A DNA stretch of 64,000 nucleotides from Listeria welshimeri serovar 6b str. SLCC5334 (lineage in GTDB: Bacteria > Bacillota > Bacilli > Lactobacillales > Listeriaceae), in the NCBI RefSeq assembly GCF_000060285.1, contig NC_008555.1, positions 2,418,001 to 2,482,000 of the forward strand. The letters are read 5' to 3'. The notes beneath the pieces were generated by a model. That model ran no database searches. It saw only the letters and a program-made list of their open reading frames with translations, and was not told the origin of the DNA. The position numbers and the translations under genes are program-made. Positions 3,128 through 57,861 of the stretch are shown here, one piece after another; the stretch's first letter is position 1, and every line of letters starts with the position of its first letter.

Positions 3128-3436
3128 ATGCTTGATTTAATTTTCCCACTTTTGCTCATTATTCTTGGCATCCTATACCGGGTAAATCCCCCTCAAAATA
3201 AAGAAAGTCGCTTTAGTTATCGCACGAATGCTTCTTTAAAAAACGAAGCCACTTGGCAAAAAGCACATCGGTTACTTGGGATTTCCTGGATAATTATTGG
3301 CGTATTACTCTTGCTATTATCACTTATACTCGCCTTTATTCCGATGCACGCTTTTGTTCGCAGCTCCATTTTATTAACTATAAGTATTTTTGCCGTCTTA
3401 CTATCTGTTATTTTTGTTGAGAAGAAGATTGGATAA
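3128..3436 (+). CDS. SdpI/YhfL-family small membrane protein
   Basis: A 102-residue integral membrane protein with three hydrophobic segments (about 3-17, 50-68, 74-93). Between the first and second is the SdpI-family signature FSYRTNASLKNEATWQKAH. B. subtilis SdpI is an immunity protein and signal-transducing partner for the SdpC killing factor, but most short homologues have no known role. The start is placed at the ATG at 3128 because AAGGAGG lies seven bases upstream; the earlier in-frame ATG overlaps the ribosome site. No sdpABC-like genes are next to it. It borders the accessory island that follows. Confidence 0.75.
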   Translation: MLDLIFPLLLIILGILYRVNPPQNKESRFSYRTNASLKNEATWQKAHRLLGISWIIIGVLLLLLSLILAFIPMHAFVRSSILLTISIFAVLLSVIFVEKKIG

Positions 3437-3601
3437 GAAAGTACACTGAAAGAAAGAATCGGTTCTGTCTATAGTCCTCCAGTTCTATCCAAGCAATAAG
3501 TGGCAATATCGGTTTGAAGCCTCTACATACTCAAAGTTACGAGCAGTGGGCAAGAAAGCGTCAGCCTATCCCATTTTTTGCATGGTCTGGCTAAAATCTA
3601 G
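3437..3601. other. Non-coding stretch with possible gene debris
   Basis: No intact gene is visible between the SdpI-family gene and the LXG cassette (3437-4079). On the plus strand around 3490-3570 a short open frame reads SNKWQYRFEAS..., which looks protein-like but has no start and no continuation. I treat it as possible debris and do not name it. Confidence 0.3.
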
Positions 3602-3807
3602 TTAAAACAGCATACAGACTTGTGAACAGGCATAGTATTTTCTGGCGATTTGTTGCTTGTTTACGGGTCTGTTTTCATCTTGGAAGAACTTTTCTAGAAC
3701 CAGTAATACCCCTGCCATGATTGAAGTTGCTCCCAGCTATCATATAAACTGTAAATATCTTGGTGGCTAATTTCTTTAATTGATTGCTTATTTTCTGTTT
3801 GAATCAT
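3602..3807 (-). pseudogene. Frameshifted fragment of a small gene
   Basis: A good ribosome binding site (AAAGGAGT) precedes ATG at 3807. The frame gives MIQTENKQSIKEISHQDIYS and stops at TAG (3696-3694) after 37 residues. The neighbouring frame then continues from 3718 with MAGVLLVLEKFFQDENRPVN and stops at 3604-3602. The two halves overlap at about 3718-3700, as expected if one gene of roughly 65-70 residues has been broken by a small indel. I do not recognise the family. It lies downstream of the LXG cassette on the same strand, past a terminator. Confidence 0.35.
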
Positions 3808-3838
3808 TTCTTTCACTCCTTTACTTTATTGATACACG

Positions 3839-3879
3839 AAAAAACGGTATCAGTGATTGTCTCCTCACTAATACCGTTT
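3839..3879 (-). terminator. Rho-independent terminator downstream of the LXG cassette
   Basis: AAACGGTATCAGTGA (3842-3856) and TCACTAATACCGTTT (3865-3879) form a 15-bp stem with one mismatch. On the minus strand it ends in six T. It is the first strong minus-strand terminator after the immunity gene, 200 bases beyond its stop. Confidence 0.75.
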
Positions 3880-4000
3880 CAATAGTTCCACATTTTTCAG
3901 CCGAAATTACCATACATTTAAGAAACATTCAAAAAGACTAGAAAAATCCTTTGAATTTTTGTGCAATAAATACAGCTAGCTTTTGTCAGCTATCGGCAAA

Positions 4001-4080
4001 TTGATTAGTAAGTATGTCCTTACTGGTCAAGGCTCTATCTTCTCGATTCCCGTCGAGTAGTAGAGTGCCTTTTTATTTTT
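4001..4080 (+). other. Two adjacent hairpins ending in a T-tract; possible small RNA 3' end
   Basis: The first stem is TTGATTAGTAAG / CTTACTGGTCAA (4001-4012, 4019-4030) with two wobble pairs. Immediately after it GGCTCTATCTTCTCGA and TCGAGTAGTAGAGTGCC (4031-4069) form a longer bulged stem, followed by TTTTTATTTTTT, which runs into the stop codon of the minus-strand immunity gene. The T-tract is on the plus strand, where no upstream protein gene is open. It could end a plus-strand small RNA antisense to the 3' end of the cassette, or be a relic. I see no convincing plus-strand promoter. Confidence 0.4.
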
Positions 4081-4466
4081 TAAAATGGAAATTCATTTAT
4101 AATTTCGACTTTAAGACTTTTACTTGCAATTACTATCGGAGCCGTTTCAAAATCTTCAGCGTTAATTTTAAAAATATAATTACCTTCTTCTACTTGATAT
4201 TTATTGATAATATACCACATTTCATCACCTTCTACTAATTCAATAAAAGGATTAGAATTGTCTAACTGCCAAGAAAATAAAGTTGTAACATAATAAGGAT
4301 TACCAAAATCAATATTAATAGCCCATTCATCATAACTTACATCTTTTCTACCACCTATTGTTACATTACTTGCGTTCATTTGAGCAAATTCAAAATCCAT
4401 CCACATACATTTTTTCAAATATTCATTAATTTTATCTAGTTCATTTATAATTTCATTTTTTTTCAT
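4080..4466 (-). CDS. Putative immunity protein of the LXG toxin
   Basis: A 128-residue, acidic, soluble protein starting MKKNEIINELDKINEYLKKC. It is the last gene of the cassette, 24 bases after the toxin gene on the same strand, which is the usual place for the cognate immunity protein of a polymorphic toxin. The predicted layout is an N-terminal helix followed by a beta-rich body. The immunity role is inferred from position, small size, acidity and an AT-rich composition that matches the toxin's C-terminal part. I do not recognise the sequence family. The ribosome site AAAGGAG precedes ATG at 4466. Confidence 0.6.
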   Translation of the reverse strand: MKKNEIINELDKINEYLKKCMWMDFEFAQMNASNVTIGGRKDVSYDEWAINIDFGNPYYVTTLFSWQLDNSNPFIELVEGDEMWYIINKYQVEEGNYIFKINAEDFETAPIVIASKSLKVEIINEFPF

Positions 4467-4490
4467 TTTAAATTCTCCTTTTATTAGATT

Positions 4491-6080
4491 TTAGTCTGTA
4501 GGAATATGAGTATTTTTTGCAGCCTCATGATTAAAAAGTGGGTTAAGAGTGCCGTCTCCATTAAATTCTCTTAACTCACTTTGATGCCACCAGTTTCCAT
4601 TTTTATCCATATATTCCATACCCGATCCTTGTTTTCCCGGGACTGGTTTTGTCTTTCTTGAAACTCTATAGATTTTTTTAGCATCTGTATATTTAGGGTC
4701 TCCTGGATGTACTCTCACCTCATAATTATAATCCCCGTGTGTCCATTTCTGTTTCAATTTTTCAGGTACTTTATCTAATCCTTGTTGCTTCAAAGCATCA
4801 TCTAAATAGTGTTTTGGTTTTGAAAAATCAGCCCCACTAGCTTTCTTAATTTTCTCTAAAGCAACCTTCTCTCGTTTTAAATACTCCTTCATTTTCGAAG
4901 CTTCTCTAGCTTTCTTACTTAATTCTATATTCTTTTGGACTGTTTTACTATCATTTTTTATGCGCTCAGAAATTTTTCCAACTTCTGGTTCTTTTACTTT
5001 CTTTGCCATTATTGTTTTATTTCTAGCAGCCGCAATCCCAAACCCTAGACTTAAAGTCATTTCTGTCAGTCCAGCATCATCCATCGCATCTTTTACGCTG
5101 GCCACATAGGCAGAAGACTTCAACACGCCTCCGGAAAATCCGGAAACTTTTTGACCATTTAAGTAATTCACGCCTTCTTTCCAACTGTCATTTACTTTCC
5201 GTTCTAGTTCTTCTCCGGAAAGATTGGTATAAAGAAGGGGATTTAATTCTTGGCCATGTTCTTCTAGGAAGTCTTGCAGTTCTTGGTTCGTTGCTCGTTT
5301 GCCATCTCTTTCTAGCAGCCACATCGTTACCGTTTCGCCTTGGTCATTCACGTAAGTATAGGCAAACAAGGTATAATCTTCAAATGCTTTAGGAAAAGGA
5401 TCTTTATCGTTTTCTTTTCGGGCTGCTTGGAGCGCTTTATTCATTAGTAATAAGCTATTGGTGGCACTGGTTGGTACGGAGTAAGTACCCGTTTTCTCAT
5501 TAAACGTAACCTGTTGTAACAATGCTTGTACCGCACGACCGGTCGCTCGAATGAGTTCATCTAGCGCACTAAAAAACTGGCCATGACTTTGTTCAAAAGC
5601 CAAATATTTTTCGAGTATCTGTTCTTTTTCGATAGCCTCCAGTAATTGGGTGTGGACACTTCTTGATTGGACGGTATAAATTTGTTGCATGTCCGGCCTC
5701 GTGTTTGGCGCTGTCAATTGTTGGTGTAAGTTGTCTTCTTTTCGTCGCAATTGGCTCACCTTTGCCATGGCTTCTTGTAAAACCTCCGCATCTATCCTGG
5801 AGGAAGGCGAACTATCCACTTGACTGCCAAACTCTCGAATATACTGCGCCAGGCGTTCTTCGCTCTCATCCAACGCTTCTAAGATACTTTGAGCAATGCT
5901 GGTATAGGTACTAGAAAAGTACTGTTTCGATGTGGTCACGGCAGCCCCTTTTAGACTGTTATCTTGGGTATAATGGATGGCTGCTTCTTTAATTTGTTTA
6001 ATCATCGTTTTGGCTTCGGCATTACTACTTCGCAAACCATGAAGAAAGTCATTTAATTCGGCAATATCTATCCGGCTCAC
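4491..6080 (-). CDS. LXG-domain polymorphic toxin (type VII secretion effector)
   Basis: A 529-residue protein. Residues 1-200 are an LXG domain, a long helical WXG100-like module (SRIDIAELNDFLHGLRSSNA; repeated coiled-coil heptads) that targets effectors to the type VII (Esx/Yuk) secretion system. Residues about 200-340 are a linker, and the last 120 residues (from DFSKPKHYLDDALKQQG) are the likely toxic domain, with WTHGDYNYEVRVHPGD, NGNWWHQSEL and EAAKNTHIPTD. The His/Asp/Arg-rich motifs suggest a nuclease-type toxin, but I cannot name the family with certainty. The start is the second GTG (6080), which overlaps the upstream stop as GTGA and is eight bases from AAAAGGAG; the upstream GTG overlaps that site. 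DNA becomes AT-richer after about 5060, as in swapped toxin tips. Confidence 0.8.
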   Translation of the reverse strand: MSRIDIAELNDFLHGLRSSNAEAKTMIKQIKEAAIHYTQDNSLKGAAVTTSKQYFSSTYTSIAQSILEALDESEERLAQYIREFGSQVDSSPSSRIDAEVLQEAMAKVSQLRRKEDNLHQQLTAPNTRPDMQQIYTVQSRSVHTQLLEAIEKEQILEKYLAFEQSHGQFFSALDELIRATGRAVQALLQQVTFNEKTGTYSVPTSATNSLLLMNKALQAARKENDKDPFPKAFEDYTLFAYTYVNDQGETVTMWLLERDGKRATNQELQDFLEEHGQELNPLLYTNLSGEELERKVNDSWKEGVNYLNGQKVSGFSGGVLKSSAYVASVKDAMDDAGLTEMTLSLGFGIAAARNKTIMAKKVKEPEVGKISERIKNDSKTVQKNIELSKKAREASKMKEYLKREKVALEKIKKASGADFSKPKHYLDDALKQQGLDKVPEKLKQKWTHGDYNYEVRVHPGDPKYTDAKKIYRVSRKTKPVPGKQGSGMEYMDKNGNWWHQSELREFNGDGTLNPLFNHEAAKNTHIPTD

Positions 6081-6445
6081 TGACTCCACTCCTTTTGCAA
6101 GGTGGCCTGTTTTGTTTCTAGTGCGTGGAGTTTGGCCTTCACTTCTTGTAATTCTTTCTCTAAATCGGCTCTTTTATCCTGGAGATCTTTCATCCAAGCT
6201 TGTGCTTCTTCGTATTGTTGCGCTTCCAAATAACGATGAAAACCACTGGCTTCCTCTCCTTGCCAACCACTGCGCAAAAAGTCCAGGAGTGCTCGTTTTT
6301 CTTGGGTTAATTGGTGGCTGTCCTCTTCTAACCAATCTTGTTCATTTTGTTTTCTTCTCGTTTGATCGACATTCGTTTCTGCCGTCATCTTCGCTTTTTT
6401 GATTTGTTGGAGTTGTTGTTCTAGTTGGCTGTGTGCGCTATCCAA
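6077..6445 (-). CDS. Helical LXG-associated partner protein
   Basis: A 122-residue protein that is almost entirely charged, heptad-like helix (LEQQLQQIKKAKMTAET, KRADLEKELQEVKAKLHAL), with a central SGWQGEEASGFHRYL stretch whose WQG turn resembles a WXG100 helical hairpin. Small helical proteins encoded directly upstream of LXG toxins (Lap-type partners, DUF3958/DUF5082-like) bind the LXG domain and are needed for type VII export. That role is inferred here from position and fold. The start is a TTG that abuts the upstream stop (TAATTG) and has GGAGG eight bases upstream. The stop overlaps the toxin start by four bases, indicating translational coupling. Confidence 0.65.
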   Translation of the reverse strand: MDSAHSQLEQQLQQIKKAKMTAETNVDQTRRKQNEQDWLEEDSHQLTQEKRALLDFLRSGWQGEEASGFHRYLEAQQYEEAQAWMKDLQDKRADLEKELQEVKAKLHALETKQATLQKEWSQ

Positions 6446-6730
6446 TTACCGCACCTCCAACTGATGGATTTTTTGTCCCATCGCCTGGTCTTGTTTGGCA
6501 TAGGCAATCCCCATTTTCTTTAATCGGTTCGCATCTTGCTTGGTCACTTGTTGAAAAGCTTCGACCACTCCGACTAAATCAATCAATGCCGATCGTAACT
6601 GATCAATCGAATTAGCTCTGGAATAAGCCATATTCCCGTTTTTTAGGGGTAAGTAATTTCCCGTACTCTTACTATCCAATTGGGCTGCATGTTGTTGAAA
6701 TGTTGCTTCCTTGACTTGTATTTCTCTCAT
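6446..6730 (-). CDS. Small helical LXG-cassette protein (TIGR04197/DUF3130-like)
   Basis: A 94-residue protein, first gene of the cassette. It begins MREIQVKEATFQQHAAQLDS and has two helices joined by a turn, the size and shape of a WXG100/TIGR04197-type partner, though no strict WXG motif is present. Family assignment is tentative. A longer open frame extends upstream, but AGAGGAAG seven bases before ATG 6730 decides the start. The next gene begins at the base after this stop. A -10 TATAAT at 6784-6779 precedes it; I see only a weak -35. Confidence 0.6.
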   Translation of the reverse strand: MREIQVKEATFQQHAAQLDSKSTGNYLPLKNGNMAYSRANSIDQLRSALIDLVGVVEAFQQVTKQDANRLKKMGIAYAKQDQAMGQKIHQLEVR

Positions 6731-6778
6731 CTGAACGCTTCCTCTCTGTCTATAAGGATGGTTTTTCATGCTCCCCCT

Positions 6779-6808
6779 ATTATAACATCGGTCGCGCCCT
6801 TCTTTTGT
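6779..6808 (-). promoter_or_regulatory. Probable promoter of the LXG cassette
   Basis: TATAAT (minus strand, 6784-6779) lies 49 bases before the first ATG. The -35 region (around 6808-6802) is poor, ACAAAA or CAAAAG, so the promoter may need an activator or be weak. Confidence 0.4.
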
Positions 6809-7035
6809 GAGCGTTTTGTGAAACTATTCGTTAAGAAATAGCTTTACAGCCGCTTTTTAAGTGAAAAATTTAACATTTTATATCTGATAGATTTTATGTT
6901 CTCTTTATTAAGAAATAAACTCCCAAAGATTGTTAAAACAAACAGATTATTAGATACAGATACTTCTTCTATTGTTTGATACCTAGTCAGTTATTAGCAC
7001 TCATATAAGTCACATAGTATATTCTGCTTTTCCTT
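6785..7035. other. AT-rich intergenic region between divergent toxin and immunity-like genes
   Basis: I see no open frame with a start site and no clear hairpin here. The stretch is markedly AT-rich and separates the divergent LXG cassette from the immunity-like pseudogene. Confidence 0.4.
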
Positions 7036-7064
7036 TTGTGTTCATTCCATCAGTGTGATATATT
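7036..7064 (+). promoter_or_regulatory. Probable promoter of the immunity-like gene
   Basis: TTGTGT (7036-7041), a 17-base spacer and TATATT (7059-7064). It lies about 90 bases before the start codon at 7153. Confidence 0.5.
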
Positions 7065-7152
7065 AAGTTTATAAAATGAAGAGTGTTACTTATTATTTTG
7101 TTTCAGACGAATTTATGCAACCTAAGTTAAACAACAAAGGAGAGAATTATTT

Positions 7153-7628
7153 ATGAAATATGATGATGCTTCATGGCATTATGATGGTAACTATCCCAAA
7201 GATCTGCCATCCGAAAATGCAGCAACTGCTATAGGTATGTTTTTAGCATGGTGTATATATAATAACCTTTTAGCCGATGATTTAAAAGAAGATGCTGAAG
7301 ATGATATTGAAAAAGTACTACAGGGAAAAATGACTGGAGCCCAATTTTTAATTATGGATTGTGATGAAAAATTTATAGACTTTTTTTTATCAGAATTAGG
7401 TCAGCAATTCGCTAATGATTATTATGAGAACGATTCGGAATTCGCAAAAAAAGTGGCTAACTACCATGTTGACTACTGCAATGCTTTTAACGAAAAAGCT
7501 AAAAAAATGGCTTTGAATATAAATCCATATATCATGTTGAAGATACGAAAGAAAACTATGATTTAATTTCAGTAATTATAAGTAAACGGTTTAACCATTG
7601 GAAAGAAAATTATATGCCTAAGCATTAA
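7153..7628 (+). pseudogene. Immunity-like protein (DUF7832-type), frameshifted at an A7 tract
   Basis: The open frame (7153-7566, 137 aa) starts MKYDDASWHYDGNYPKDLPS and has TAIGMFLAWCIYNN and GAQFLIMDCDEKF, which I recognise as a conserved family often found near toxin genes. The last 18 residues of the open frame do not fit. The -1 frame downstream of the run of seven A (7501-7507) instead reads GFEYKSIYHVEDTKENYD and SVIISKRFNHWKENY and stops at 7626-7628, giving the expected family C-terminus. Adding one A joins the two into a 158-residue protein. The gene is therefore either broken or switched by slippage. The ribosome site AAAGGAGAG precedes the ATG. Confidence 0.7.
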
Positions 7629-7684
7629 ACGTTAATGTTCTGATTTTTATAATATAGTTCCAATGAGTAAGGGTAATACAAAAG

Positions 7685-7731
7685 AAAACAAGTAAGCAAA
7701 TCTTTAAAAAGATAAACCTTACTTGTTTTTT
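7685..7731 (+). terminator. Terminator after the immunity-like gene
   Basis: AAAACAAGTAAG (7685-7696) pairs with CTTACTTGTTTT (7718-7729) and ends in a T-tract. It is symmetrical enough to act in both directions. Confidence 0.65.
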
Positions 7732-7771
7732 GTTAACGCAAAAATAGATATAAATCCATACTATGGTCAAC

Positions 7772-7800
7772 AAAAAAGCACTGCTCTAAACAGTGCTTTT
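7772..7800 (-). terminator. Terminator of the antiterminator gene
   Basis: AAAAGCACTG / CAGTGCTTTT is a perfect 10-bp stem with a 7-base loop. On the minus strand it is followed by TTTTTT. Confidence 0.85.
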
Positions 7801-7831
7801 CTGTAATCCATTACATATAAGTCCAAAAAAA

Positions 7832-8689
7832 TTATTTTTCATCTTTTGCAATTGTATTTCTTTCTGTTACTCGATAAATATGAATCGTAAGGTAGACACG
7901 TTCGTCTCTCGTTAGCTCTGTGTGGTGTGTATTAAGCAAATAAGCATCAATTTTTTTCGTACAATTAAAAGCTTCTGGATACTTAATTTGCACTTGTTCA
8001 TACAAAAAGTCATCACCGGAATCGACAATTTCTTTTCGAAGTAAACGTTGTGCGAAATACTGTAAATGTGTAATAAAGCGAGTGTAGTTTAGGGAAGTTT
8101 CATCCAAAACCATGCCGTAATGATACGTGACAATACTTAAAATATCTTGAACGATTTGAGTCATTGCAACTGTCATGTGCATTTGTTGCCCATCTTGTCG
8201 AGCATTGACGATATGAAGCGCAATAAATCCGGCTTCATCTTCATCCAGTCTAATTCCTACTTCCTGCTCAATAAAATCTAATGCTTTCATTCCAACTAAA
8301 TACTCCGCGTGATAAAATCGTTTAATTTCCCATAATAGAGCATTTTTCAGGTTAATTCCTTGATTATACCGTGATACCGCAAAGTTAATGTGATCCGTGA
8401 GCGTTAAATAAATATTGTCACTCAAATCCGTTTCCAGTGTTTCTTGGGCGTATTGAACAACATCATCTGCTACACGTAAATGTTTCAGTGGGATTTCACT
8501 CAGTAGTTCTGACAGCTTCTCTGAAAGTTCATGTGTCTCCATTACAAATGTTTTTTCAATCTTGGGCACTTCCACCTCATCTCCAAGTTTCTTTTGAAAA
8601 GCAAGACCACGGCCCATAACTACAGACTCCTTGCCACTTTTACCCTCGGCGATTACAACATTGTTATTCAGTATTTTTTTGATAATCAT
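7832..8689 (-). CDS. BglG/LicT-family transcription antiterminator
   Basis: A 285-residue RNA-binding antiterminator. Residues 1-55 are the CAT RNA-binding domain (KKILNNNVVIAEGKSGKESV, GRGLAFQKKLGD). PRD1 is about 65-170, with His104 (LTDHINFA) and His161 (FIALHIVNA) as phosphorylatable positions. PRD2 is about 175-275, with THLQYFAQRL and LTIHIYRVTE. PTS components phosphorylate these histidines and so control binding to a RAT hairpin in target mRNA. No PTS permease or glycosidase gene adjoins it, unlike most licT/bglG loci. Its own leader carries a RAT/terminator pair, so it probably autoregulates. The target sugar is unknown. Confidence 0.9.
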   Translation of the reverse strand: MIIKKILNNNVVIAEGKSGKESVVMGRGLAFQKKLGDEVEVPKIEKTFVMETHELSEKLSELLSEIPLKHLRVADDVVQYAQETLETDLSDNIYLTLTDHINFAVSRYNQGINLKNALLWEIKRFYHAEYLVGMKALDFIEQEVGIRLDEDEAGFIALHIVNARQDGQQMHMTVAMTQIVQDILSIVTYHYGMVLDETSLNYTRFITHLQYFAQRLLRKEIVDSGDDFLYEQVQIKYPEAFNCTKKIDAYLLNTHHTELTRDERVYLTIHIYRVTERNTIAKDEK

Positions 8690-8959: not shown

Positions 8960-9367
8960 ATGGTAACACGCTCGGAACAAATTTTTGTTAACTTGCCTGT
9001 CAAGGATTTGCAAGCCACTGTCACATTCTTTACGGAACTTGGTTATGAATTCAATCCTCAATTTACTGATGAAAATGCAACTCAAATGATTATTGGGGAA
9101 AATATTTTCGCCATGCTCTTGAAGGAAGATTTCTTCCAGACTTTCCATAAAAACGAACTCGCAGATACCACAAAAGTACGCGAAGTCCTCATTACAATAA
9201 CACAAGATAGCCGCCAAGCTGTGGATGCACTTGTTGATCATGCTCTAACAATCGGTGCCCAACCTGCATCAGAAACTCAAGACTATGATTTCATGTATAG
9301 CAGAAGTTTTCTAGATTTAGATAAACATTTATGGGAAATTGTTTATTTAGACGAATCAGCTTTATAA
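8960..9367 (+). CDS. VOC-superfamily (glyoxalase/bleomycin-resistance-like) protein
   Basis: A 135-residue protein of the vicinal oxygen chelate fold. It has one pair of beta-alpha-beta-beta-beta modules: IFVNLPVKDLQATVTFFTEL (7-26) opens the first and ITITQDSRQAVDALVDHALTIGA begins the second, ending SFLDLDKHLWEIVYLD. Such proteins bind a divalent metal in glyoxalases and dioxygenases, or simply sequester small molecules in resistance proteins. The family's second-module Glu is present (WEIVY), but a complete metal set cannot be confirmed, so substrate and activity are unknown. The start at 8960 follows GGAGGTG. It converges on the DfsB-family gene, sharing a terminator. Confidence 0.8.
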   Translation: MVTRSEQIFVNLPVKDLQATVTFFTELGYEFNPQFTDENATQMIIGENIFAMLLKEDFFQTFHKNELADTTKVREVLITITQDSRQAVDALVDHALTIGAQPASETQDYDFMYSRSFLDLDKHLWEIVYLDESAL

Positions 9368-9376
9368 TAAAAGAAA

Positions 9377-9412
9377 GGAAGCTGGAATTCACTTGATTCC
9401 AGCTTCCCTTTT
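9377..9412. terminator. Bidirectional terminator shared by convergent genes
   Basis: GGAAGCTGGAAT (9377-9388) and ATTCCAGCTTCC (9396-9407) form a perfect 12-bp stem followed by CTTTT. One arm lies inside the last codons of the minus-strand gene that ends at 9389. Confidence 0.75.
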
Positions 9413-9901
9413 AAATTTACGTATCTTCTTTATTGCCCAAGCATAATGACTAGATGTGCTTGAAATAAAAATGGCTCCAAGCGAAGTCGTATTTGTCCAT
9501 TTATAAAATTTCTTTGTAAACAATTCTTCATCTGAATGCACCGCAATTAAGCGCATTTCCTTATTATGGGTTTCATCCAATAGTTTCCTTGCTTGTTCTA
9601 AATCAGTCTCCTGATACTTCTTCCAAATCATCTGATTCAGTTCTGGCGTTGTCCTCCACGTATAACCTTCCGCTGGCATAAAAGGCTTCTTACCACTCAT
9701 ACCAATCCTATACCATTCAAGTGCCATATTATGCCATTCATGCAAATGTACTACCACATCACGAATATTCTTATCGCGATCCTCAAACGAAAACGCTAAA
9801 TATCGCTTTTCTTCTGGAATAGAATCAATTAAATCATTCAGTTGCTGATACTTTTCTGTGCTTTGTTGAATTAATTCGGCTTTTGTCGTCGGTTTTGCCA
9901 T
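9389..9901 (-). CDS. ClbS/DfsB-family four-helix bundle protein (DUF1706)
   Basis: A 170-residue, all-helical protein. The N-terminus MAKPTTKAELIQQSTEKYQQL, the central DVVVHLHEWHNMALEWY and the GYTWRTTPELN segment are typical of the DUF1706/ClbS/DfsB family, DinB-like bundles. ClbS is a colibactin-resistance cyclopropane hydrolase and DfsB is linked to drug sensitivity, but Listeria members are uncharacterised. The start is placed at 9901 because AAGGAGT is eight bases upstream; the frame is open further but lacks a site. The 3' end of the gene is part of the terminator stem shared with the convergent VOC gene. Confidence 0.8.
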   Translation of the reverse strand: MAKPTTKAELIQQSTEKYQQLNDLIDSIPEEKRYLAFSFEDRDKNIRDVVVHLHEWHNMALEWYRIGMSGKKPFMPAEGYTWRTTPELNQMIWKKYQETDLEQARKLLDETHNKEMRLIAVHSDEELFTKKFYKWTNTTSLGAIFISSTSSHYAWAIKKIRKFKREAGIK

Positions 9902-52249: not shown

Positions 52250-53464
52250 TTAATTAAACGTTTTTGTTTCAAGTTCAGAGACTTTAATAATCCCATTTCC
52301 AACTTTTGCTTGAAGTGTGGCCATGCTTATTTCTTCTGCATTTTGAGTGAAAACAAAGGTTCTCTCTGCATCATCCCAAATTTTTGCGTTTTTTAAGTCA
52401 AAATAGATTTTTTCTTTTTTTGTTCCGAGTGTTCCATCGACATTCCATGTTGGCGGAATTTGAATCCGAATATCGCCATTAGGTGCTGCCAAATCTGCTG
52501 CTTTAGAAGTTTCGTTTTCAAGAATATATTCAACATCCCCTTGAGCTGCCTTAGCAATGGTCGTATGGAAGTTACCTTGAAGCGCAATATCTCCTTTTGC
52601 AGTAGACATATCTACATTTTCAACGGAGCTACGTTTAAAGAAAATTTCTCCGTCAGCAGATTCAGTGCTAAGAAATTTACCGCTAGCTCCAGAAGAACGG
52701 ATATCTCCGTGACGTGTTTTGATAATAGCATCTTCCGCGGCTGTATCATCATATTTCAAATTACCATTTAATAATTGAATTTTTACTTGTTCATATAAGC
52801 GCTTTGGAATTGTGACAACTAAATCTGTTTTTAATAATTCATTTTTTGATTCAAAAGTAAAACTATCCGGAGTAATATCTAGCATTGTTTGGCTAAAGAA
52901 ATAATCCCATAGTTTAGCTTCACTCAATTGGCGAATAGATCGTGCTTTTTCATGTACAGCTAGTACTGCACGAATTTTCATTTGATCTTTGTCCCAAGAA
53001 CGGATAATAACGTCTCCAGTAGCTACTCTAATTGTAAAGGAACGGAAAGTAGCCTCATCAAAATTGAATTCTCGTACCGGACGAGGTCGCGCTTCTTTTC
53101 TTCTTGCTCCGTGGTGAATTGGTTCTGTTGCTGATGGTTTAGGTCTTCTGTGATGATGACTATTTCTCATTGCTTCTCGCACTTCCTGTCTAGCTTCATT
53201 ACGTCCAGCGTGGCGTCTTCTTTTTTCTTCCACACGACGACGGTGACGTTCAAGTACTTCTTCATTACTAGTGTCAGAAGAAGGAATCACAAACAAGGCA
53301 ATGATATAAGCGATAATTGCAATACCGGTTTTCATCGTGATAATTGTGATGATTATATAAATAAGTCTTAGAAGCGTGGCATCTATTCCTAAAAACTCAG
53401 CAAGTCCGCCAAACACTCCACCGACTTTCCGGTCCACTCTTGATCTTCTTAGTTTTTTATCCAT
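52250..53464 (-). CDS. PspC-DUF4097 fusion membrane protein
   Basis: A 404-residue protein. Residues 1-62 are a PspC domain with two transmembrane stretches (LRRSRVDRKVGGVFGGLAEF; TLLRLIYIIITIITMKTGIA), followed by a very basic linker (about 70-130, rich in Arg, Lys and His, with HHRRPKPS). Residues about 140-400 form a DUF4097 repetitive beta-helix (ITDTAEDAIIKTRHGDIRSS-like repeats; KFLSTESADGEIFFKRSSV). It looks like a membrane-anchored adhesin/sensor type with the PspC end as anchor. Second gene of the envelope block. Confidence 0.8.
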   Translation of the reverse strand: MDKKLRRSRVDRKVGGVFGGLAEFLGIDATLLRLIYIIITIITMKTGIAIIAYIIALFVIPSSDTSNEEVLERHRRRVEEKRRRHAGRNEARQEVREAMRNSHHHRRPKPSATEPIHHGARRKEARPRPVREFNFDEATFRSFTIRVATGDVIIRSWDKDQMKIRAVLAVHEKARSIRQLSEAKLWDYFFSQTMLDITPDSFTFESKNELLKTDLVVTIPKRLYEQVKIQLLNGNLKYDDTAAEDAIIKTRHGDIRSSGASGKFLSTESADGEIFFKRSSVENVDMSTAKGDIALQGNFHTTIAKAAQGDVEYILENETSKAADLAAPNGDIRIQIPPTWNVDGTLGTKKEKIYFDLKNAKIWDDAERTFVFTQNAEEISMATLQAKVGNGIIKVSELETKTFN

Positions 53465-53491
53465 GCTAGCTCTTCCTTTCTTTTTTCTATG

Positions 53492-53524
53492 TAAAATCTA
53501 GCGCGCTTTTGATGCGCTAGATTT
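53492..53524 (-). other. Intercistronic hairpin between the DUF4097 genes
   Basis: AAAATCTAGCGC / GCGCTAGATTTT, perfect 12-bp stem with a 9-base loop, but only a short TTTT on the minus strand. It may process the mRNA or partly terminate. Confidence 0.6.
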
Positions 53525-53528
53525 TGGA

Positions 53529-54782
53529 TTATTTTACTTCACGGATTTTCACGGAACCAGTTGTTGCTTCTGCTTCGATTTTCAAGGAAGAGTCAGCTGC
53601 ATTAGGCAATTTAGTGAAAATAATTGATTTACTTACAGATTCCGTTTTAGATTCAAGTATCTCTGCATCTTTTAAATCCAGCAATAATTTACCTAAATTT
53701 GTATGCAAACGGCCATCCACACCGATTGCTGTTGGCACGATCACTTCAATATTACCAGCACCAGTTTTTGCTTTTAAGAAAGTAGCTTCATTGCCAGTTA
53801 ATTGATAATTTACGTTGCCGTTTTTAGTTTGCAAGTTGGTGGAGTAGTAATTACCTTTAGCTGCTACGTTACCGTTGAATGTTTTCAGAGCGATATCACG
53901 GATTTCCCCATTTTGGATACGCACATTACCATTAATAGATTCGATTTCCGCGAGTGTAGCGTTTAATGTTCCAATACTGATATTACCATTAGTCGTTTTT
54001 ACAAATAAATCACGGCCAGATAACTCATCCAAATGGAAGTTACCATTAAGCATTTTAACAGAAACATAATCATACTCACGACGAGGTAAGTATACAGTTA
54101 GGTTTGTAACAATCTGTTTGGATTTAGATTCAAATCGTAACGTTTCTTCATCTACACGTAAAGTGGTTTTATCAAAGAAGATTTTAAGTGCTTCATCTTC
54201 AGGATATTCTTTAAATAGCTTAATCATCGCATGTACTTTAATATCGTTCGAATCAGATGGTTTAAATTCTACATTCCCATTAGCAATTTCAAATTCTAAA
54301 ATAGAAAGTGTTGTGTCATGGTAAATGAAATCACGTTCGATTTTCGTTGATGTTAAGAATGGAAATGGCATATCCTTCACTTGTTTAAAAGCACTATTTA
54401 GGAAAGAACCGATTTTTTCACCTGCTTGTGATAAATCATTGACCATATTGCGCATAGATTCATCTTGATCTTTAGAAGATTTTTCGTTATTTTCTTCAAC
54501 GGGCTCTTCCTTATTTTCTGAATTTGGTTCAGGACGTCTTTTACGGCTTTTTGGAGGTGTATAAGGATTACCTTGATTGTTCCAGCCTTTACTGTAATCA
54601 TAAGTAGATTCTTCTGCTTCCTCGACCTGTTCTTCTCTAGGTGTTGCAGAACGACGAATATTTTCTTTTGCTGCCGTTTTACCTTCTTTTTTAGAAATAT
54701 TTTCAAGCAAAGTAAGTGCTTCTTCTGTAGAAATAATACCTTGTTTTACTAATTCAAGAATACGTTTACGTTCATTTTCCAT
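53529..54782 (-). CDS. DUF4097 beta-helix protein with N-terminal SHOCT-like motif (YvlB/LiaG-like)
   Basis: A 417-residue, mostly soluble protein. The N-terminus (ENERKRILELVKQGIISTEEALTLLENIS) is a short SHOCT-type helical motif, then a Glu/Lys/Arg-rich linker, then from about 145 a DUF4097 beta-helix of repeated turns (FDKTTLRVDEETLRFES, KMLNGNFHLDELSGRDLFVK, TTNGNISIGTLNATLAEIES, INGNVRIQNGEIRDIALKTF). YvlB and LiaG, related proteins, are made during cell-wall stress. First gene of the four-gene envelope block, with a promoter 84 bases upstream. Confidence 0.8.
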   Translation of the reverse strand: MENERKRILELVKQGIISTEEALTLLENISKKEGKTAAKENIRRSATPREEQVEEAEESTYDYSKGWNNQGNPYTPPKSRKRRPEPNSENKEEPVEENNEKSSKDQDESMRNMVNDLSQAGEKIGSFLNSAFKQVKDMPFPFLTSTKIERDFIYHDTTLSILEFEIANGNVEFKPSDSNDIKVHAMIKLFKEYPEDEALKIFFDKTTLRVDEETLRFESKSKQIVTNLTVYLPRREYDYVSVKMLNGNFHLDELSGRDLFVKTTNGNISIGTLNATLAEIESINGNVRIQNGEIRDIALKTFNGNVAAKGNYYSTNLQTKNGNVNYQLTGNEATFLKAKTGAGNIEVIVPTAIGVDGRLHTNLGKLLLDLKDAEILESKTESVSKSIIFTKLPNAADSSLKIEAEATTGSVKIREVK

Positions 54783-54866
54783 TTTTATTTCCTCCTATAT
54801 TTTCGGCTAAACTATTTTAGGCTTGCTATTATTTGCAAGTGACATATCTGCTTTATCTATGTTTCT

Positions 54867-54895
54867 ATTATGAAGGAAAAAATAATTTCTGTCAT
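54867..54895 (-). promoter_or_regulatory. Promoter of the envelope-stress block
   Basis: ATGACA (54895-54890), 17-base spacer, CATAAT (54872-54867) on the minus strand. Upstream of it the minus strand carries GACCAAACCACCCAAAGTCC (54941-54922), a GC-rich stretch that could hold an activator site of the LiaR type; I cannot confirm the consensus. Confidence 0.5.
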
Positions 54896-54950
54896 ACAAC
54901 CAGAGGATGATTATTTGTTTGGACTTTGGGTGGTTTGGTCTTAGGCACAT

Positions 54951-54986
54951 AAAAACATCCCGCTTAATAAAGATATAAGCGGGATG
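54951..54986 (-). terminator. Terminator of uvrBA
   Basis: CATCCCGCTTA / TAAGCGGGATG perfect 11-bp stem ending in five T on the minus strand, immediately after the uvrA stop. Confidence 0.9.
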
Positions 54987-54990
54987 GTGA

Positions 54991-57861
54991 TTATTTTTTC
55001 TTCGCTGCTGTAATTCGTTCTTCGGTTCGTTCTTTGTCACGTTCTAAAATTGGTTTTAAGTATTTACCTGTATAGGATTTTTTTGAACGAGCGATTTTTT
55101 CTGGTGTGCCGGTCGCAATAATTTGGCCACCTCCATCGCCGCCTTCTGGACCTAAATCTATCAAGTAATCCGCTTGTTTGATAACATCTAAATTATGCTC
55201 GATAACAAGAACTGTGTCGCCATTTTCTTCTACTAGTCGTTGTAAAACTTTTAGTAAACGACCAATATCATCTGCATGGAGCCCAGTAGTTGGCTCATCA
55301 AGAATATAGAATGATTTACCGTTGCTACGTTTATGAAGTTCAGAGGCAAGTTTTACACGCTGCGCTTCACCTCCAGAAAGTGTTGTAGCAGGTTGCCCAA
55401 GTCTAATATAGCCAAGTCCAACATCCACAATGGTTTGTAATTTACGAGCAATTCTTGGTTGGTTAGTGAAATATTCTAATCCTTCTTCTACAGTCATTTC
55501 TAACACTTCCGCGATATTTTTACCTTTGTAACGAATGTCTAAAGTTTCACCATTATAACGTTTTCCATGACACACTTCACAAGGTACATATACATCTGGC
55601 AAGAAATGCATTTCGATTTTGATAATTCCGTCGCCTTTGCATGCTTCACAACGACCGCCTTTTACGTTGAAACTAAAGCGGCCTTTTTTGTAGCCACGAA
55701 CTTTTGCTTCGTTAGTACTAGCAAAAAGGTCACGAATATCATCAAAAGCGCCCGTGTAAGTCGCTGGATTGGATCTTGGCGTTCTTCCAATTGGTGATTG
55801 GTCAATATTAATGATTTTTTCTAGATTTTCAATTCCTTTTATTTCTTTATGTTCGCCAGGTTTTACATGGTTTCTATTTAATTTTCGGGCCAAAGCTTTT
55901 CGTAAAACTTCATTCACGAGCGAGCTTTTTCCTGAACCAGAAACTCCTGTCACACAAGAAAATGTTGCTAATGGGATTTTGGCATTTACATTTTTTAGAT
56001 TGTTGGCTTTAGCTCCAATAATTTCTAATTCTAATCCATTGCCTTTTCTTCGTTTAGCGGGAACTGGAATGAATTTTTTTCCTGAAAGATAATCACCCGT
56101 GATAGAATTTTTGTTTTTTGCAACTTCTTCTGGGGTTCCGGCTGCTACGATTCGTCCGCCATGCTCTCCAGCACCCGGACCGATATCAATAAGATAATCT
56201 GCGGCCATCATCGTATCTTCATCATGTTCTACAACAATAAGCGTATTTCCAATATCACGCATACTTTGAAGCGTGCTAATTAAACGATCATTATCTCGTT
56301 GATGGAGTCCGATGGAAGGCTCATCTAAGATATAAAGCACACCTGTTAATCTGGAGCCAATTTGGGTAGCTAATCGTATCCGTTGTGCTTCACCGCCAGA
56401 TAAAGTCCCTGCAGCACGACTCATTGTAAGATAGTCAAGACCAACATTTTTTAAGAACCCAAGTCTAGCGCGAACTTCTTTGAAAATCGGAGCAGCAATT
56501 TGCGTTTCTTTTTCAGAGAGTTCTAGACCGTCAAAGAAAGCAAGTGCTTCATTAATAGAAAACTCGCTGATTTGACCAATATGGTGGTCGTTTACTTTAA
56601 CAGAAAGTGTTTCTTCTTTAAGACGGTAACCTTTACAAGATGGGCAAGGTAAATCAGTCATATATTGCGCCATTTGATCTCGTGTAAAGTCAGAATTTGT
56701 TTCACGATAACGTCGTTCGATATTTGGAAGTATACCTTCAAATGGAATCCAAGTTTCACGCGTCATTCCGAAATCATTTTTATATTCGAAATAGAATTCT
56801 TTGTCTTTTGATCCGTTTAAAATAATGTCCAATTCTTCTTTGGGCAGTTTTTCAAGAGGCGTATCCATATCAATTCCGAATTCTTTACATGCAGAAGCTA
56901 ACATTTGCGGATAGTACTGGGAACTAATTGGACGCCATGGGATAATTGCGCCTTCATTTAAAGATAAGCTTTTGTCTGGAATGACAGTATCTACGTCTAC
57001 TTCTAGTTTTGTTCCAAGTCCATCACATGTTGGGCAAGCGCCAAATGGACTATTGAAAGAAAACATTCTTGGCTCTAGTTCACCAACTGAAAAACCACAA
57101 TAAGGACATGCATAATGCTCACTAAATAGCAGTTCTTTATCTCCCATAATATCGACAACTGCATAACCGTCTGCTAACCGAAGTGCCGCTTCAATGGAGT
57201 CATATAAACGAGTATTAATGCCTTCTTTAATCACAATACGGTCAATAATAATTTCAATGGAATGCTTTTTGTTTTTTTCTATTTCGATTTCGTCATTAAT
57301 ATCATAAATTTCTCCATCAACACGAATTCGGACGTAACCTTCTTTTTTGATTTCCTCGATGGTTTTCTTATGTGTTCCTTTTTTGCCAGAAACGATTGGC
57401 GCCATAATTTGAAGACGTGTTTTTTCTGGAAATTCTAGGACACGATCAACCATTTGTTCAATTGTTTGTGAAGTGATTTCGATTCCATGATTAGGACAAA
57501 CCGGATGTCCCACTCGAGCATAAAGTAATCGTAAATAATCATGAATTTCTGTCACTGTTCCGACTGTAGAGCGCGGATTACGACTCGTTGTTTTTTGATC
57601 AATCGAAATAGCTGGACTTAAGCCTTCAATTAAATCAACATCTGGCTTATCCATTTGTCCTAAAAATTGGCGTGCATAAGCAGACAAAGATTCTACATAA
57701 CGTCTTTGGCCTTCCGCATAAATCGTATCAAACGCAAGCGAAGATTTACCTGAACCGGAAAGTCCCGTCATAACTACTAATTTATCTCTTGGTATCTCTA
57801 CATCAATGTTTTTTAAGTTATGGGCTCTTGCACCCTGAATTACTATTTTTTCTTTATCCAA
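54991..57861 (-). CDS. uvrA: Excinuclease ABC subunit UvrA
   Basis: A 956-residue damage-recognition ATPase of nucleotide excision repair. Two ABC-type ATPase modules: Walker [13 protein letters not shown] (about 33-44) and [14 protein letters not shown] (about 640-653), signatures [16 protein letters not shown] and [14 protein letters not shown], and Walker [13 protein letters not shown] and [12 protein letters not shown]. Zinc fingers are at CPYCGF...CPTCDG (about 253-283) and [11 protein letters not shown]...CEVCHGKRY. Seven bases after uvrB. Confidence 0.98.

Follow-up and report, generated by a model that had tools for sequence, protein, structure and literature searches.

An RNA-like element common to unrelated toxin-immunity cassettes, found behind an LXG toxin operon of Listeria welshimeri

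The 64,000-nucleotide stretch of Listeria welshimeri serovar 6b str. SLCC5334 analyzed here (contig NC_008555.1, positions 2,418,001 to 2,482,000, henceforth the window) carries a four-gene operon centered on an LXG toxin, apparently a toxin-and-antidote set aimed at rival bacteria. Directly behind the stop codon of its immunity gene lies a conserved structured element of approximately 140 base pairs (bp) that contains no annotated gene. The cassette itself is of a known kind: the toxin belongs to a family that can be named, and the immunity protein belongs to one that is absent from Pfam and NCBIfam. The new part, as judged from sequence comparisons, is an uncatalogued RNA-like 3' component that is common to many unrelated toxin-immunity pairs. 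An earlier note on this DNA described the operon and overlooked this element; the lower limit that it gave, position 4080, falls just short of the most unusual part of the locus (3836-4086).

We consider it probable that the locus is an interbacterial LXG operon of the type VIIb secretion system (T7SSb) with an exchangeable cassette and a 3' element of the small-RNA type that has two roles. Going by protein families and gene order, the two small partners of the toxin, Lap1 and Lap2, would carry it to the EssC machine, its C-terminal Ntox30 tip would cleave RNA in the rival cell and the immunity protein of 128 amino acids (aa) would neutralize the tip in the producer by binding to it. In its first role the element would supply a common stretch across which cassettes with unrelated toxins are swapped by homologous recombination. 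In its second role, wherever its promoter is intact, it may give rise to an RNA that is antisense to the 3'-terminal part of the toxin-immunity messenger RNA (mRNA) and tunes the stability of this mRNA.

Position and spread of the element

The element is missing from the resources that we searched. Rfam 15 yielded no match at E<=1 over positions 3430-7840 of the window, the best Rfam match to the element stretches of two relatives reached 16.9 bits as against a cut-off of 62.6, nothing was recovered over the element at gathering level in 15 further loci, and no description of it was found in the open-access literature and Rfam. It does not represent a multi-copy repeat of this genome, in which DNA similarity reveals only one copy. 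Separately, a very weak match (23 bits, E 0.083) at positions 9293-9425 of the window is probably due to chance. Elsewhere, the element follows a different immunity gene in Isobaculum and a different cassette at the Listeria locus L054. At L004 (418-717) and L054 we also observed a displaced cassette behind the element, which repeats the end of the toxin body and bears another tip.

A covariance model built from six copies detected 42 matches in 17 of 25 genomes of the genus (E<=0.01). With a model of 31 copies, and ten candidates scored per genome, matches were recovered in 55 of 300 genomes sampled from one order, spanning 17 of 75 genera (E<=1e-4); 16 of these 55 genomes belong to the genus of the window. 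By combining 36 stretches around the genus matches, 40 order-level stretches that were hand-picked from the match list and are non-random, and the earlier loci, we obtained 116 copies once four rows had been left out. The rows dropped from the alignment (A7, 47 rows) are L054, which is the same copy as L099, as well as L131, L132 and L133 (34 bits); L131 lies 3 bp from the stop codon of a toxin locus, and its omission is unfavorable to the interpretation offered here. The copies were divided, by eye and after the alignment and part of the contexts had been viewed, into class A (84 copies, mostly from toxin-type loci) and class B (32 stand-alone copies that are more G+C-rich and often paired).

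The element is closely tied to the ends of genes in class A: 71 of its 84 copies start between -40 and +20 bp of the stop codon of a same-strand open reading frame (ORF), versus 3 of 32 copies in class B (74 of all 116). The 71 last ORFs fall into 41 clusters and 58 ORFs directly before those into 38, some of the latter being short or unrelated ORFs rather than toxin tips. In Pfam scans of chosen preceding proteins (32 and 30, of which some match nothing and the one at L111 is the product of a metabolic gene), eight named toxin families were detected above their cut-offs in separate proteins before the element. These are EndoU (3 proteins), toxin-deaminase, TreTu, LHH, GH-E, Tox-REase-3, CdiA_C, which is marginal at 26.7 with a cut-off of 26.6, and Ntox30 (L066 and L100). 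Bodies of the LXG, Rhs, PT-TG and PT-HINT types also precede copies of the element. Within the genus, 14 of the 42 element matches lie no more than 8 kilobases (kb) downstream of a same-strand LXG domain, compared with 0.45 expected and none for the opposite strand; many of the remaining matches lie in Rhs, pre-toxin or spare-cassette contexts.

Small-RNA features, proposed exchange and rival readings

The predicted fold of the element has 26 pairs, with a GGCA/UGCC stem enclosing two hairpins. In 16 diverse copies, which were aligned without use of structure and are the same sequences from which the fold was derived, 95.0% of the cells are paired, covariation amounts to 0.451, a level reached by 0 of 500 shuffled controls, as against 0.182 in these controls and no more than 0.118 when partners were slid, and 14 of the 26 pairs have changed on both sides. 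Likewise, in the first hairpin, as extracted from 87 of the 116 copies, a copy's own arms pair at 87% of positions versus 67% for arms exchanged among copies. Counts of wobble pairs, made on the first fitted alignment, were indecisive. As shuffles fold less well than the window copy on either strand (z -3.8 and -3.3), the strands were compared across all copies. The fold energy is lower on the strand antisense to the operon in 76 of 84 class A and all 32 class B copies, the mean values for the antisense and operon strands being -29.5 and -23.5 kcal/mol in class A and -46.8 and -29.9 kcal/mol in class B. On the antisense strand the stem of class A copies is followed by 9.3 U in 12 bases (n=71), versus 2.2 on the other strand (n=74), and in the window this U-run (4070-4079) abuts the stop codon of the immunity gene.

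A promoter-like pattern, ACTAGA-(19 bp)-TACAAT with one mismatch allowed per box, occurs in 22 of 84 class A and 17 of 32 class B copies, compared with 2.5 and 1.5 in shuffles and a single copy of each class on the other strand; the 19-bp spacing is kept in 16 of those 22 and in all 17. A generic promoter and terminator scan listed neither these sites nor the operon-side hairpin of the window (3836-3879), and gave no excess over shuffles. On the operon strand, a hairpin with a T-run comes after 45 of the 84 class A copies (4 in shuffles). Since this operon-side hairpin lies beyond the element, the operon transcript probably runs across the whole RNA gene, and the operon mRNA and the small RNA would be complementary over the entire length of the latter. 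Based on the fold, covariation, strand bias, U-run and promoter boxes, we infer transcription of the element, which is most likely a small-RNA gene or the descendant of one, placed in the 3' untranslated region of the operon and pointing in the opposite direction.

The class B copies L177-L181, L170, L173 and L191, which come from genomes of the order and include several tandem pairs approximately 290-450 bp apart, display covariation and promoter boxes, and no Rfam match covers the element in them. Matches to the Rfam families rli28 and RatA lie near some of them (L170 1932-2269, L178 3809-3900), which may reflect chance or a small-RNA cluster. A reading of the stand-alone copies as type I toxin-antitoxin loci is unsupported: by eye, no recurrent short ORF was seen before 30 of the 32, and the sole recurrent short ORF at these copies overlaps the neighboring tandem copy.

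The two halves of the element differ in their relationship to the genome in which they reside. Among the 71 of 84 class A copies that could be anchored, a comparison affected by tandem duplication within arrays and by imperfect registration, some right halves being visibly out of register, the immunity-side halves of copies from the same genome are no more alike than those from different genomes (excess 0.001; reached by 871 of 2000 label shuffles), whereas the far halves are more alike within a genome (excess 0.052; 0 of 2000 label shuffles). A near half without and a far half with a genome signal are as expected if an incoming cassette brings its near half along and recombines with the resident far half. 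We think, on this indirect evidence, that cassettes with unrelated toxins are swapped by homologous recombination across the element. An earlier account describes how toxin-immunity cassettes are swapped when recombination takes place at the 3' tip of the toxin gene (Zhang et al. 2012, PMC3482391), and in S. aureus the esaG paralogs recombine through homology blocks that include the region behind them (Garrett et al. 2022, PMC9484751); the portions of these two accounts used here describe no element common to unrelated immunity genes.

A rival reading sees in the element a mobile repeat of small size or a pure homology block, with RNA-like traits that were inherited from a stand-alone small RNA and are now irrelevant at the toxin loci. 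The distribution of the genome signal between the halves would accord with it, as would the precedent of blocks behind immunity genes that drive esaG recombination in S. aureus (PMC9484751) and the 62 of 84 class A copies without the full promoter pattern. We regard it as a credible but somewhat doubtful account, given that the antisense fold bias is kept in 40 of the 46 class A copies that lack an exact -10 box, and that the pairing of the first hairpin is kept despite sequence change. It is unlikely that the element is only a transcription terminator, perhaps a two-way one that sets immunity genes apart from convergent neighbors, with no RNA or exchange role: a conserved closing stem, two hairpins and conserved unpaired sequence exceed a simple terminator, the promoter boxes adhere to the 19-bp spacing as noted above, and 29 of the 32 stand-alone copies are situated away from gene ends. 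Such a function would nevertheless agree with the one-sided U-run, the many copies without the promoter pattern and the separate operon-side hairpin with its T-run.

Several observations weigh against the proposal of a cassette-borne small-RNA gene. The full promoter pattern is missing from those 62 class A copies, and in the L161 array the promoter side has been replaced by another hairpin with a T-run; at many loci, therefore, its action may be confined to that of a DNA stretch or a terminator. What precedes the class A copies L107, L111, L120 and L121 is a single small ORF, before which no toxin was seen. The element lies within 8 kb of only 14 of the 150 Listeria LXG domains listed (168 in total). 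The window's genome has 9 LXG matches in total, and of its 8 other LXG loci only L058 has a faint element match (32 bits). The fetched stretches of L067 and L008, both of which carry the tip and the immunity gene, yielded no element. To these may be added the division of the classes by eye and, as regards the toxin, the score of the window tip, which taken alone is below the Ntox30 cut-off (19.8 versus 25). As an observation in its own right, L161 (1005-7858) is a toxin-immunity array whose elements have a nearly identical far half and no promoter. We advance as a tentative generalization, somewhat less probable than not, that the polymorphic toxin cassettes of Lactobacillales might share an uncatalogued small-RNA gene, placed within the 3' end of the toxin-immunity unit, which serves both as an antisense regulator of the toxin transcript and as a 3' crossover stretch for unrelated toxin-immunity pairs, and whose stand-alone relatives possibly act on many cassettes at the same time.

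The toxin operon and its exchangeable cassette

All four co-directional ORFs reported earlier are present on the minus strand (6730-4080; Table 1), and their interpretation as an LXG effector module of the T7SSb, with two partners and a putative immunity gene, is borne out by Pfam, NCBIfam and gene order. The 94-aa protein, whose gene starts at 6730 within a mechanical frame of 107 aa, matches DUF3130 in Pfam (137.6 bits versus a cut-off of 25) and TIGR04197 in NCBIfam (56.1 bits versus 26); its motif, as read by eye, is YxxxD (AYAKQD) and not the FxxxD given for Lap1 by Klein et al. (2022, PMC9600955). DUF3958 covers the whole length of the 122-aa protein, which has the expected place and size, with a score of 15.8 bits that is below the cut-off of 26.3. 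The toxin is 529 aa long from a GTG at 6080, the mechanical frame being three codons longer (532 aa), and has LXG at its N-terminus (Pfam, 116.9 bits versus a cut-off of 26.5). The gene order is of a known kind, since DUF3130 (Lap1) and DUF3958 (Lap2) proteins have been reported to direct the adjacent LXG toxin to the T7SSb (Klein et al. 2022, PMC9600955).

Of the translational coupling proposed in the earlier note, the TAATTG abutment (6448-6443) and the GTGA overlap (6080-6077) are present in the sequence, but the immunity gene is not coupled by overlap, as 24 bp separate it from the toxin gene and an AAGGAG ribosome site of its own precedes it. The description as a complete module calls for a qualification, as the EssC ATPase, the component of the machine that was searched for, lies elsewhere in the genome (1895 bits versus a cut-off of 778, at 52988-56866 of its own genome). 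The statement that the immunity protein belongs to no nameable family stands, as the 128-aa protein has no meaningful match among the families of Pfam or NCBIfam. A sequence search of the PDB with the toxin, tip and immunity protein returned no convincing relative.

In contrast, the suggestion that the toxin chemistry might be new could not be upheld. Ntox30 is the only recurring Pfam family on the tips (cut-off 25), scoring 19.8 bits on that of the window and 19.8, 21.6 and 24.5 bits on those of three relatives. The tip of L066, which is 64% identical, provides a bridge at 26.1 bits, above the cut-off, and that of L067 scores 19.4. Across the aligned tips, R42, H44, R58, R61, T110, H111 and I112 are invariant (6 of 6) and P113 is present in 5 of 6. 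The published signature of Ntox30 is that of an all-beta domain with RxH, R and THIP motifs and a predicted metal-independent RNase activity using two histidines (Zhang et al. 2012, PMC3482391); in the portions of the literature used here, this activity is in places a prediction, and elsewhere Ntox30 is counted among characterized nuclease domains. In view of the Ntox30 scores and the invariant signature residues, we read the tip as a divergent Ntox30 domain, a predicted metal-independent RNase whose chemistry has already been named. That it is merely Ntox30-like and has a target other than RNA, as its sub-threshold score and the lack of a convincing PDB relative by sequence might suggest, is improbable in light of the invariance of the RxH, Arg and THI residues of the published motifs in all six tips and of the bridging relative above the cut-off. 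A textbook Ntox30 domain (131.1 bits) is found at another locus of the genus, L100, which also has the 3' element; a search for the family in 398 genomes of the class gave 2 matches, both below the cut-off and one with stops.

A homolog of the 128-aa protein lies directly behind the tip at all six tip loci, including that of the window. The relatives of the tip comprise a 96% identical version in Isobaculum melis, on a short frame with a weak match to the PT-TG pre-toxin domain, an 85% identical one in Lactococcus plantarum, at the end of a 1681-aa frame with Rhs-like repeats by eye, that of L066 on an LXG-like protein (LXG 24.2 bits versus 26.5), a 57% identical one on a DUF4280 PAAR-like protein (L067) and a 42% identical one on a Rhs-looking protein. 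Similarity to the Listeria-type toxin body (L054/L063) ends at 4824/4834 and that to the cassettes of L006/L007/L066 at 4848/4849 (4808 for L067), which places the junction close to where the tip begins, in an interval of some 25 bp. At the other end, the DNA match of the cassette continues past the immunity stop codon, reaching 3952 in Isobaculum (899 bp at 92%), 3974 in Lactococcus (at 88%) and 3914 in L066 (at 72%), and that of L067 halts at 4080. The exchangeable unit, as shown by comparison, comprises the tip, the immunity gene and the structured 3' element.

Relatives of the tip are rare. Counting the window's own genome, they were found in 3 of 25 genomes of the genus (with a 134-aa query, of which two of these genomes matched no more than the first 63 and 23 residues), 2 of 398 genomes of the class and 4 of 395 of the order. 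At the thresholds used there were none in viral contigs, plasmids or phages, and viral contigs also held no relative of the immunity protein. In addition, the Ntox30-like tip of L067 and its immunity gene (287-2754) have close by what, judged by eye, is a transposase-like ORF, and L011 (1447-1845) has a 25% identical immunity homolog with no tip within its 3.3-kb stretch.

The operon is part of a 4.3-kb island, and its insertion among core genes is confirmed by an empty site in all 14 syntenic sister genomes, in which the SdpI-like gene adjoins the antiterminator and the order esterase-gadB-SdpI-like-antiterminator is kept; a fifteenth genome (L053), in which the antiterminator alone was visible, was left out. 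Similarity of the flanks stops at 3426 in 8 of the 14 genomes and at 3444-3451 in the other 6, and is back at 7768-7791. The G+C fraction is 0.44 in the toxin body and drops to 0.27 at the tip and immunity end. Close relatives of the toxin body occur at other sites and with other tips in two sister genomes, L054 (with 78% identity in the body) and L063 (91%). The DUF7832 gene of the same island lies on the strand opposite to the toxin operon and could be an orphan immunity gene.

Table 1. Coordinates of the features discussed, in window positions.
Feature	Position	Strand	Basis
Conserved structured element at the immunity stop codon	3944..4086	- (operon orientation)	Shared DNA, covariance models, alignment
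Inferred small RNA body, U-run 4070-4079	3974..4079	+ (against operon)	5' end inferred from -10 box
Promoter-like boxes ACTAGA (3937-3942), 19 bp, TGCAAT (3962-3967)	3937..3967	+	Sequence, pattern scan
Hairpin and T-run, likely toxin-operon terminator beyond the RNA gene	3836..3879	-	Hairpin scan of copies
Putative immunity gene, 128 aa	4080..4466	-	Homolog directly behind the tip at 6/6 tip loci
Toxin tip, divergent Ntox30 (PF15532)	4494..4838	-	Pfam score, bridging relative, motifs
Junction of Listeria-type body and mobile tip	4824..4849	-	DNA similarity limits
LXG toxin, 529 aa	4491..6080	-	ORF list; LXG PF04740 E 1.5e-33
LXG domain	5484..6074	-	Pfam, residues 6-202 of the 532-aa frame
Lap2-type partner, 122 aa	6077..6445	-	DUF3958 E 0.017
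Lap1-type targeting factor, 94 aa (DUF3130 / TIGR04197)	6446..6730	-	PF11328 E 1.7e-40
DUF7832 gene	7153..7566	+	PF25191 E 4.7e-35
Island absent from sister genomes at this site	3427..7771	.	Approximate limits, synteny and flank similarity

Relation to known systems and significance

In its order of a DUF3130 gene, a DUF3958-like gene, an LXG toxin and an immunity gene, the operon is the same as those of the TelC/TelD-type LXG effectors of S. intermedius (PMC9600955); it differs from them in its tip, its weak DUF3958 match and the RNA-like 3' element, of which the portions of that paper used here make no mention. The tip shares the RxH, R and THIP motifs with Ntox30 (PF15532; PMC3482391), and likewise the position of a C-terminal tip, found there with LXG and RHS bodies among others. 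Here, however, it represents a divergent subgroup below the cut-off with a dedicated immunity family, of which the corresponding table row there shows none. A constant body, a variable tip, an immunity gene behind it and arrays of spare cassettes are features held in common with polymorphic toxins in general (PMC3482391) and with the LXG hotspots of Listeria (PMC10327511), whereas a conserved element marking the 3' end behind unrelated immunity genes is undescribed in the parts of those works drawn upon here.

The esaG homology blocks (PMC9484751) also present a conserved intergenic stretch behind an immunity gene that is tied to recombination, but that block joins the paralogs of one immunity family, as opposed to the element described here, which is common to 41 clusters and has a covarying fold. 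Finally, the type I antisense RNAs of the par/Fst kind (PMC7472228) likewise entail a small RNA against a toxin transcript, with a common 3' region. In the present case the toxin is large and secreted and the antidote is a protein, and no peptide gene was recognized, by eye, beside the stand-alone copies.

As of the survey of Zhang et al. (2012, PMC3482391), going by the portions used here, no RNA regulator was known for any polymorphic toxin system; the element, situated at the stop codons of immunity genes across many genera, is a candidate RNA regulator of polymorphic toxins. It would at the same time be a DNA marker of the 3' ends of cassettes, one that is undescribed in the sections drawn upon of the literature on tip exchange. 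Two questions are thereby made testable, namely how unrelated toxin-immunity pairs reach the same landing place, and whether toxin arsenals are under RNA control. New toxin-immunity pairs may be found by searching directly upstream of the element.

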